A stretch of DNA of 64,000 bases from Fidelibacterota bacterium (lineage in GTDB: Bacteria > Fidelibacterota > Marinisomatia > Marinisomatales > TCS55). The notes under the pieces are model-generated. The model saw nothing but the letters and a program-made list of their open reading frames with translations. It was not told the origin of the DNA and searched no databases. The stretch covers positions 62,001 to 126,000 of the forward strand of contig JAAZYX010000003.1 in assembly GCA_014239435.1 (NCBI GenBank), in the 5' to 3' direction. This document shows positions 24,347 to 52,982 of this stretch, in pieces. Numbering within the stretch: position 1 is the first letter of the stretch; each line of letters begins with the position of its first letter. A program made the position numbers and the translations under genes.

Positions 24347-26137
24347 TTACTTTAGCAATATTGCTTTTTGGGTTTGTACGAATTCGACTGATTTTAAAGT
24401 AACAACGTACAACCCGCTAGGATATTGAGACGCATTCCATTGAATCTTGTGCTGGCCGGGATTTATTATTCCTTCCGCAAGCGTTTCCACCAGACGGCCG
24501 GTAATATCATAAATGTTCAATTGTAGGGGATGCATTATTGCTTCCCCTACACCAATATCAAACCGGATTGTGGTAATCGGATTAAATGGATTTGGATACG
24601 TCGGATACAACTGAAACATCTTTGGAATAATTTCTTGTGCGGCAATAGACATTAAAGTTGAATCATTCCATGCTTTTCCGGGTGAGCCATAGTCTCCGTC
24701 TCCAAAGGGAGTTGTTGAAACAGACCAATTGTTCGATACACTGTTGTCAGCCGTCATATCCGAAAGATACATGGATGCGCCGCTGCTGAAAGGGAATGCA
24801 GTTGAGTATGCCACCTGATCCACAATATTCTGATCAGTGTCCACAAGGACAACTTCATCGGTAGAATTCCCGAGTGTAAAGCCGGAATATTCATAATCAG
24901 CGGTAAATCCGCCATTAGTAGTCGAATCATCGTTCCTTCCAAAAACAAGATATCCGCCTGCCGGAATTGTGAGTGAATCAGTTACGGAAATTGTATGCGT
25001 GTCGCTTCCATTATCCTTGATCACCCACCCGTTCAAATCCAGTTCAGCTGAATCGGCGTTATACACCTCAAACCATTCACCGTAGCTGTCCGAAACGGCG
25101 CTCGGGTTTGGCATCACTTCAGAAATGACGATCCCTGCACCGGCACCTTCCCCGGGAGGAAAACTGAATGATGCCATAACGGGAATATGATCAGACGCAT
25201 AGTACAATGCGTCAGCCACAACCGCGCCTACAGCAGTATTAGTAGGACTGTCATTAATACTGTCATTGTAATGCAGGCCGTCGTTCCCGTACGCAATATA
25301 GGACCCTTCCACATACGTCATATCGTAGGTTTCATTCATCACTTGTGTGGAAGCAAGAATGAAATCAAATCTATCATCCATCCCGCCGGAAGAACCGCCA
25401 CCGAAACTGGTTTCTCTTGGGCATTGCGTATGAATGGATGCAAAGCTGCTGCTGTTGTGCCACGTTCCCGGACTATCTATGGGATCGTGAACCTGTCCGC
25501 TCGTATCCGAACCGGATTCAATCAATGTATTATATCCGGGTTCCTGATAGCTGCCGGAAGCATTACTGCTGTAAAAATTGAAATCGCCTGCTACTATAAA
25601 ATGACTCTCATTATCCAAACCGTTTAAATAAGTCCTGAGCGCCAATGCCTCCGCTGCCCTTTCAGTGTAATTGGATGATCCGGAACTCGCCTGAAAATGC
25701 AATCCGTACACGCGGAATTCCACACCGGACGGAGCATGTTTCATAACAAATTCTATCGCATCCCGATTGTAAGAACTTTGTTTTGTATTAACAGTACTTG
25801 TGCTCACAAAATCGAAATAATCGGTTTTGTAATAAAGTCCAACATCCTGAGTGGCAGTTTGATTGGTAAATGTGGCCACTGCCCACTCACCGGGTTCCAC
25901 TACATCCAAAACATTGGACAAAAATTGAGCTGAACCGCCATCCGATCCAATGATTTCTGAGGCAACAATCAGCTCAGGTTCTGCATCTGCAATAATTGTT
26001 CGAAAATACGAATCCCGGCCTGTGTCGCCGTCGTCTCCGTAATACAAAAGGTTGTATGCCATGAAACGATGCTCCCAGCCTTGTGCGCTTAAATGCAAAG
26101 ATAGTATTAGAAAAAATATAATGAATTTTTTAGTCAT
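24347..26137 (-). CDS. Secreted endonuclease/exonuclease/phosphatase-family protein with lamin-tail and T9SS sorting domain
   Basis: 596 residues. Signal peptide ends LSA|Q near 18. The EEP (DNase I-like) domain spans about 20-325 with the expected residues: the metal-binding Glu in VASEIIG, YGLHFQASSG, the GDFN motif (VAGDFNFYSS), DDRFDFILAS and the terminal SDH (ASDHIPVMAS). A lamin-tail domain follows at about 335-480 (VISEVMPNPSAVSDSYGEWF) and a sorting domain from about 505 (YPTYPNPFNPITTIRFDIG, then PSGLYVVTLKSVEF). All catalytic positions are kept, so it is probably an active extracellular nuclease or phosphodiesterase for scavenging phosphate or nucleotides. It overlaps the asparaginase gene by ATGA and ends the sprA operon. 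Confidence 0.85.
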   Translation of the reverse strand: MTKKFIIFFLILSLHLSAQGWEHRFMAYNLLYYGDDGDTGRDSYFRTIIADAEPELIVASEIIGSDGGSAQFLSNVLDVVEPGEWAVATFTNQTATQDVGLYYKTDYFDFVSTSTVNTKQSSYNRDAIEFVMKHAPSGVEFRVYGLHFQASSGSSNYTERAAEALALRTYLNGLDNESHFIVAGDFNFYSSNASGSYQEPGYNTLIESGSDTSGQVHDPIDSPGTWHNSSSFASIHTQCPRETSFGGGSSGGMDDRFDFILASTQVMNETYDMTYVEGSYIAYGNDGLHYNDSINDSPTNTAVGAVVADALYYASDHIPVMASFSFPPGEGAGAGIVISEVMPNPSAVSDSYGEWFEVYNADSAELDLNGWVIKDNGSDTHTISVTDSLTIPAGGYLVFGRNDDSTTNGGFTADYEYSGFTLGNSTDEVVLVDTDQNIVDQVAYSTAFPFSSGASMYLSDMTADNSVSNNWSVSTTPFGDGDYGSPGKAWNDSTLMSIAAQEIIPKMFQLYPTYPNPFNPITTIRFDIGVGEAIMHPLQLNIYDITGRLVETLAEGIINPGQHKIQWNASQYPSGLYVVTLKSVEFVQTQKAILLK

Positions 26138-52299: not shown

Positions 52300-52372
52300 G
52301 CCACCTTAGCTCAGTTGGTAGAGCAACTCATTCGTAATGAGTAGGTCCGCGGTTCAAATCCGCGAGGTGGCT
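52300..52372 (+). tRNA. tRNA-Thr(CGT)
   Basis: 73 bases, acceptor GCCACCT/AGGTGGC, D arm with AGCTCAGTTGGTAGAGC, anticodon stem ACTCA/TGAGT with loop TTCGTAA (anticodon CGT), T arm with GGTTCAAATCC. No encoded CCA. A T-rich run (CTCTTTTTTATTTTT) follows at once and probably ends transcription. Confidence 0.95.
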
Positions 52373-52412
52373 CTTTTTTATTTTTCGATTATTTTTTGTA
52401 ATGTAGGGGGAA

Positions 52413-52982
52413 ATGAAATTCAATAATAAATACCGCATCAAATCAGCCAGATTGCCGCATTGGGATTATGGAAATCCGGGGATGTATTTCGTTACGATTT
52501 GTACCAAGAATTTTACTGAATGGTTTGGAATGGTTCAGAACAGGGAAATGATTTTGAATAAAACAGGAAATATTGCAGAAAATTATTGGGTCGGAATCGC
52601 AGACCATTTTGACAATGTTGAATTGGATGAATTTATTGTAATGCCGAATCACATTCATGGTATCATAGGAATAATTGGTGATAAAACTGTTGGTAGAGAC
52701 GTTGCATGCAACGTCTCTACATCTGATCGTATGTCCAATATTTCACCAAAACCAAAATCATTATCCACAATAATCCGATCCTACAAATCTGCTGTTACCC
52801 GATCCATTCGCAAACACCACAACTCCCATTTCGCTTGGCAGCCTCGATTTTACGATCATGTGATTCGCAATAATCATGCGCTGAAAAATATTCAAACCTA
52901 CATACAGAAAAATCCCGAAAACTGGGAGAAAGATCAAAGCCTACTGCAAGAAAATGAGCGATTTATTTCAAAATTGAACTGA
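52413..52982 (+). mobile_element. REP-associated tyrosine transposase (RAYT), Y1 HUH family
   Basis: 189 residues. The HUH motif is MPNHIHGIIGI (His-x-His after hydrophobics) and the catalytic Tyr is probably in IQTYIQKNPENW. Opening YRIKSARLPHWDYGNPGMYF and RFYDHVIRN are typical of IS200-like RAYT proteins, which process short palindromic REP sequences. A GGGGG ribosome-like site precedes the ATG. It lies 40 bases past tRNA-Thr, with no other transposon parts or terminal repeats seen. The palindrome at 52693-52720 is inside the gene, in frame. Apparently intact. Confidence 0.85.
52693..52720. repeat. Perfect 28-base palindrome within the RAYT gene
   Basis: GTAGAGACGTTGCA followed directly by its reverse complement. 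It codes VGRDVACNVST in frame without a stop. The flanking bases are not complementary, so the palindrome is exactly 28 bases. The form is like REP-type palindromes that RAYT enzymes recognise. Confidence 0.9.

Follow-up and report, generated by a model that had tools for sequence, protein, structure and literature searches.

We propose that the RAYT (TnpA-REP) gene of the window, by which we mean the whole 64-kb stretch of DNA analysed here, belongs to subclass 2.4 and carries, in a surface loop and in frame, a double-foot REP of the type expected as its target, which arrived by occasional placement or exchange; this account is held with high confidence. An in-gene REP is an already published trait of the subclass: Quentin et al. 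(2018, PMC6006769) described double-foot REPs inserted in frame in the gene, generally between the HUH and Y motifs and in a part of the protein remote from the active site. The features concerned are collected in Table 1.

Table 1. Positions of the RAYT gene, its palindrome and the sorting-domain REPs (plain numbers are window positions; other entries give contig and position, or locus)
Feature	Position	Strand	Description
RAYT / TnpA-REP gene	52413..52982	+	HUH-Y1 single-strand nuclease family, 189 aa, intact ORF
Perfect 28-nt double-foot REP palindrome GTAGAGACGTTGCATGCAACGTCTCTAC	52693..52720	.	in-gene, encodes residues 94-103
Variable-loop codons between strand 80-87 and helix 117-135	52683..52739	+	model residues 91-109, pLDDT < 50
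REP-like palindrome GTAGGGGATGCATTATTGCTTCCCCTAC	24523..24550	-	in frame, T9SS C-terminal sorting domain of the 596-aa protein 24347-26137
Sorting-domain REP sites, G000	C21:45118, C31:31933, C9:9871, C3:34504, C14:69982		in frame at fixed turn
Sorting-domain REP loci in relatives	L227, L229-L237, L288-L314		several REP types, one frame

The window RAYT and the palindrome in its gene

The identification of the ORF as a RAYT, first made from the letters alone, was borne out by profile searches and by fold. Its match to NF047646 (REP_Tyr_transpos; E = 4e-16, 59 bits) lies below the strict cut-off of 80, its match to the Y1_Tnp profile exceeds the family cut-off, and the predicted structure (mean pLDDT 80, core >90) has as its top PDB match 4ER8, the E. 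coli RAYT with a REP hairpin (E 6e-7, prob 1.00), at a TM-score of only 0.52/0.59. The catalytic motifs are H80-I-H82 (HUH), 142-143 (WQ) and Y163-I-Q-K-N167-P (Y motif); H80-I-H82, W142-Q143, Y163 and N167 are invariant or nearly so in a 30-row homologue alignment. Motifs, length and in-frame insertion fit an assignment to TnpA-REP subclass 2.4 (Bertels group 4). Like the members of that subclass (PMC6006769), the gene and its relatives show an NH[IFV]H / WQ / YIxNNP-like signature at ~190 aa, a variable inserted segment that separates strand 3 from helix C and consists of an in-frame REP footed by GT[AG]G and C[TC]AC, and a patchy distribution over many phyla. The NHIH and WQ motifs match; the window RAYT differs from the subclass in its Y motif, YIQKNP, which departs by one residue from YIxNNP, and in its host, a member of the Neomarinimicrobiota. 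The E. coli enzyme (4ER8) shares the fold, the catalytic motifs and the GTAG-footed hairpin that is its established substrate, but it belongs to subclass 2.2, has no in-gene REP and is 20% identical to the window RAYT. The window genome encodes one full-length RAYT of the window type, a distant second RAYT and two fragments, and no terminal repeats, inverted or direct, that could represent IS ends were found near the window RAYT. A tRNA-Thr (CGT) at 52300-52373 ends 40 bases upstream of the RAYT start codon, and GGTAGAGC in the D-arm of this tRNA resembles a REP foot, probably by chance.

The palindrome consists of two 14-nt arms that are 100% complementary, with no spacer, a GTAG start and a CTAC end, and it is read in the RAYT frame as GRDVACNVST. 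It is the sole perfect palindrome with an arm of at least 8 in the window, and in 2000 synonymous-codon shuffles of the RAYT ORF the longest perfect arm was 11 and never 14. Arm pairing, ORF translation and synonymous shuffles thus confirm the exact, in-frame palindrome described in the sequence-only reading, and the strong hairpin expected there is likewise supported by folding energies far beyond those of shuffles, both in ssDNA (-12.2 kcal/mol, z = -5.3) and in RNA (-19.2 kcal/mol, z = -4.7). The loop that the palindrome encodes, between a core strand and helix C, appears disordered in the structure model, at low confidence. Since 28 is not a multiple of 3, a bare insert of this length would shift the frame; the insertion needed two extra bases or some loss.

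Palindromes and reading frames in homologous RAYTs

Between the HUH and Y motifs a palindrome is present in 76 of 85 intact homologues, compared with 7 of 85 for an equal stretch upstream of HUH; the homologues were picked by similarity to a palindrome-containing query, which may favour carriers slightly, and a few genomes present in two collections contribute identical pairs (L008/L148, L035/L156 and L061/L157). The palindrome had been regarded as an exception, a view that gives way to an in-gene REP as the rule of the subclass, and an insertion unique to the window genome is rejected, as homologues carry palindromes at the same loop. Both feet, GT[AG]G...C[CT]AC, are present in 45 homologue palindromes, mostly as GTAG...CTAC, and 47 distinct sequences occur among the 52 strong ones. 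About a tenth of the homologues lack a palindrome. The loop comparison proposed earlier gave the expected outcome in the clearest of these, L044 and L066, in which the HUH-to-Y distance is 53 residues vs 64 in the window RAYT; homologues with the same residues but no palindrome were not encountered. The nearest RAYT, that of G124 (66% protein and 75% DNA identity), has the identical 28-mer in the identical place, which is compatible with plain inheritance. The second RAYT of the window genome (C19:29073-29588, L005), 35% identical, has a different palindrome at the same loop, one with few relatives elsewhere, and a RAYT fragment at C12:17177 (L094) has a REP just upstream. At least two palindromes or partial tandem copies per loop occur in the RAYTs L083, L028, L039, L056, L067, L070 and L080, as would be expected under repeated insertion. 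In two other RAYTs, G081:C30:13180 (L228) and G086:C23:10657 (L244), the palindrome occupies a second site directly before the WQ motif rather than the one following HUH, and in L015 one lies near residue 45.

The reading frames of the palindromes are restricted. Of the 43 double-foot copies, phases 0 and 1 account for 23 and 20 respectively, and phase 2, in which GTAG puts a TAG stop in frame, is never used. On a homologue tree built without the loop there are at least 12 phase changes, although shuffled counts reach down to 10-11, near the observed 12, so that the frame keeps some phylogenetic signal. One and the same palindrome is read in two frames in related RAYTs, in phase 1 in the window gene and L146 vs phase 0 in L150, and further frame differences of this kind separate L028 from L072 and L041 from L057. 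Point mutation cannot shift a palindrome's frame, which makes a new insertion or exchange the simpler explanation, with paired indels as a possible one. Palindrome similarity tracks enzyme relatedness weakly, also for cross-frame pairs (rho -0.155, with 30 of 2000 permutations as low), as expected if REP types are specific to enzyme groups. Taken together, the frames and phase changes suggest that cognate REPs were inserted or replaced again and again at a single tolerant loop; they are new evidence for repeated rather than single hits on it.

REP copies outside the gene and in type IX secretion sorting domains

Pattern and family searches of the window genome (1.74 Mb, 93% complete) turned up no further intact copy of the window REP. 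Its arm recurs once, with one mismatch, within a decayed palindrome at C14:69982, and weaker decayed copies lie in sorting domains; the possibility raised earlier, that the genome might hold no other copies, is thus half realised, only decayed ones being present. Nor were flanking copies, a REPtron feature, found within ~1.5 kb of the window RAYT. Arm copies do occur within 1.5 kb of the RAYT at 22 of 53 testable loci (1 of 53 in the shuffled control), and flanking REPs, though common in subclass 2.4, do not define it; the window RAYT is unlike the subclass in being without intact flanking REPs and in a genome nearly devoid of other intact copies. Related genomes have exact or near copies outside this locus; the exact 28-mer is present in G034, G083, G093, G032 and G123, inside and outside RAYTs, and also within the RAYTs of G124, G032, G234 and G241. 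The window palindrome is therefore a genuine REP of this bacterial group that is scarce in the window genome. In G093 the exact 28-mer also lies in frame in carB (L260, G093:C91), the gene for the carbamoyl-phosphate synthase large subunit, and a REP is likewise in frame in carB at G092:C24 (L247); both are in the region of the oligomerisation domain. A match at C20:22663 was rejected as a REP copy, being imperfect and chance-like in an unrelated ORF. Loose patterns, with 6 matches vs 5 for the reversed control, were excluded from the counts.

A second coding site for REPs is found in the C-terminal sorting domains of the type IX secretion system (T9SS; TIGR04183), where they are situated in frame between 'TTIRF-x-I/P' and 'I-Y/F-D-I-T-G-R'. 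All perfect or near-perfect GTAG...CTAC palindromes of the window genome are in sorting domains, excepting those associated with RAYTs and one chance-like match, and about a dozen of the 38 domains read in this genome have an intact or decayed palindrome at the turn. The sorting-domain REP within the window differs in type from that in the RAYT gene; those of the Neomarinimicrobiota include exact copies of the window 28-mer. A strict pattern (REP + TWYGAYMT) gave 30 matches in 16 of 245 phylum genomes and none when reversed; 27 of the 30 are sorting domains, all in one frame, a share that is no measure of preference because TWYGAYMT was chosen from the sorting domain. With an unbiased REP pattern, 12 of 63 sites read in related genomes are sorting-domain copies. 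Nearly all non-RAYT copies are in sorting domains in G081, G083, G084 and G108, and they are mostly intergenic in G033, G034, G085, G086 and G092-G096. A set of 22 genomes from other phyla yielded no sorting-domain REP. REP-bearing domains are mostly no longer than REP-less ones, or longer by 1-6 residues, a small gain indicating that the REP replaces the usual turn. Some of these REPs show compensated stem changes. No common target motif separable from coding constraint was found around them, the flanks being T-rich upstream and of IYD consensus downstream. A literature search conducted largely outside subscription journals returned no report of REPs in T9SS sorting domains and we know of none, so that in-frame REPs at one sorting-domain site in Neomarinimicrobiota are apparently new.

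Origin of the in-frame REPs

The best reading of the window gene, drawn from sequence comparison, is an in-frame insertion of a target-type REP: the GTAG-footed form, the 28-mers elsewhere and the shorter loops of the clearest palindrome-less homologues all favour it, and they uphold the earlier suggestion that the enzyme's own target was inserted, without the exceptional status claimed for it. We infer that the window RAYT, or a relative, would handle REP hairpins as ssDNA, cutting or moving them, and would occasionally place or exchange a REP inside its own gene. Survivors would be those in the two frames that avoid the in-frame TAG of 'GTAG' and in which compensating bases give whole codons; the tolerance of the loop for almost any sequence may let such insertions persist. 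An in-gene target would keep enzyme and target joined when the gene moves between hosts. As the window genome has neither an intact copy elsewhere nor a flanking copy, the activity of the enzyme on the window REP may be past. Intragenic GTAG REPs in frame within protein genes have been described in other taxa, in replication, repair and other genes, and the parts of that description available to us mention neither a RAYT gene nor T9SS sorting domains (Di Nocera et al. 2013, PMC3733652).

The strongest competitor, which we consider unlikely while giving it real weight, is a single ancient insertion whose perfection is maintained by hairpin-templated (quasi-palindrome) mutation: each arm would correct the other in replication while the sequence drifts, and no new insertion would take place. 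It would explain why palindromes at a single site are perfect although their arms are so diverse, and compensatory changes are equally expected from it; GTATGGGC...GCCCATAC (L092, a sorting domain), GCAGGGAC...GTCCCTGC (L045) and GTTGGGGC...GCCCCAAC (L169) have lost the GTAG foot and kept their pairing, which shows that in some palindromes perfection is kept up by something other than recognition by a RAYT. It is opposed by the two frames and the repeated phase changes, by HUH-to-palindrome offsets that vary widely, by the conservation of GTAG feet in most copies, by more than one palindrome per gene in L014, L028, L037, L039, L056 and L067, and by the use of other sites in L015, G081 and G086. 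A regulatory element, in which an mRNA hairpin or the enzyme bound to its own gene lowers RAYT expression, is improbable. Despite the strength of the RNA hairpin and the presence of a palindrome in most homologues, the hairpin is deep in the coding region, 280 nt from the start codon, and falls within a protein loop, its position, frame and sequence vary, about one homologue in ten does without it, and the same palindrome class occurs in unrelated genes (carB and sorting domains); nothing regulatory was seen, and the 'brake' on its own expression envisaged earlier was not borne out. It has scarcely any likelihood that protein-level selection for GRDVACNVST-like residues produced the palindrome as a side effect. 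Similar peptides do recur (GRDVACNVST, VETLHATSLQ), but they are translations of a single DNA sequence in its two open frames, the loop shows neither conservation nor order, and the synonymous shuffles reject a coincidence at the protein level.

Placement or exchange of a target-type REP in the RAYT loop thus remains our preferred account, and a broader proposal can be attached to it tentatively, as one we think somewhat less probable than its negation: the RAYTs of Neomarinimicrobiota would have repeatedly placed REPs in coding sequence at two favoured positions, the loop of the RAYT itself and the T9SS sorting-domain turn, the latter always in the same frame and mostly without much lengthening, so that a mobile palindrome would recur as a building block in secretion tags as well as in its own spreading enzyme. 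The window RAYT adds a clean case to the single-strand transposase relatives whose coding sequence includes a target-type hairpin, and the loop, which on the frame analysis appears to be hit or exchanged repeatedly, offers a natural readout for testing how REPs move. The sorting-domain copies are the more surprising and weightier part compared with the RAYT gene itself: if they arose by repeated insertion, many secreted proteins of a single phylum owe part of the amino-acid sequence of a conserved export signal to a mobile DNA hairpin.
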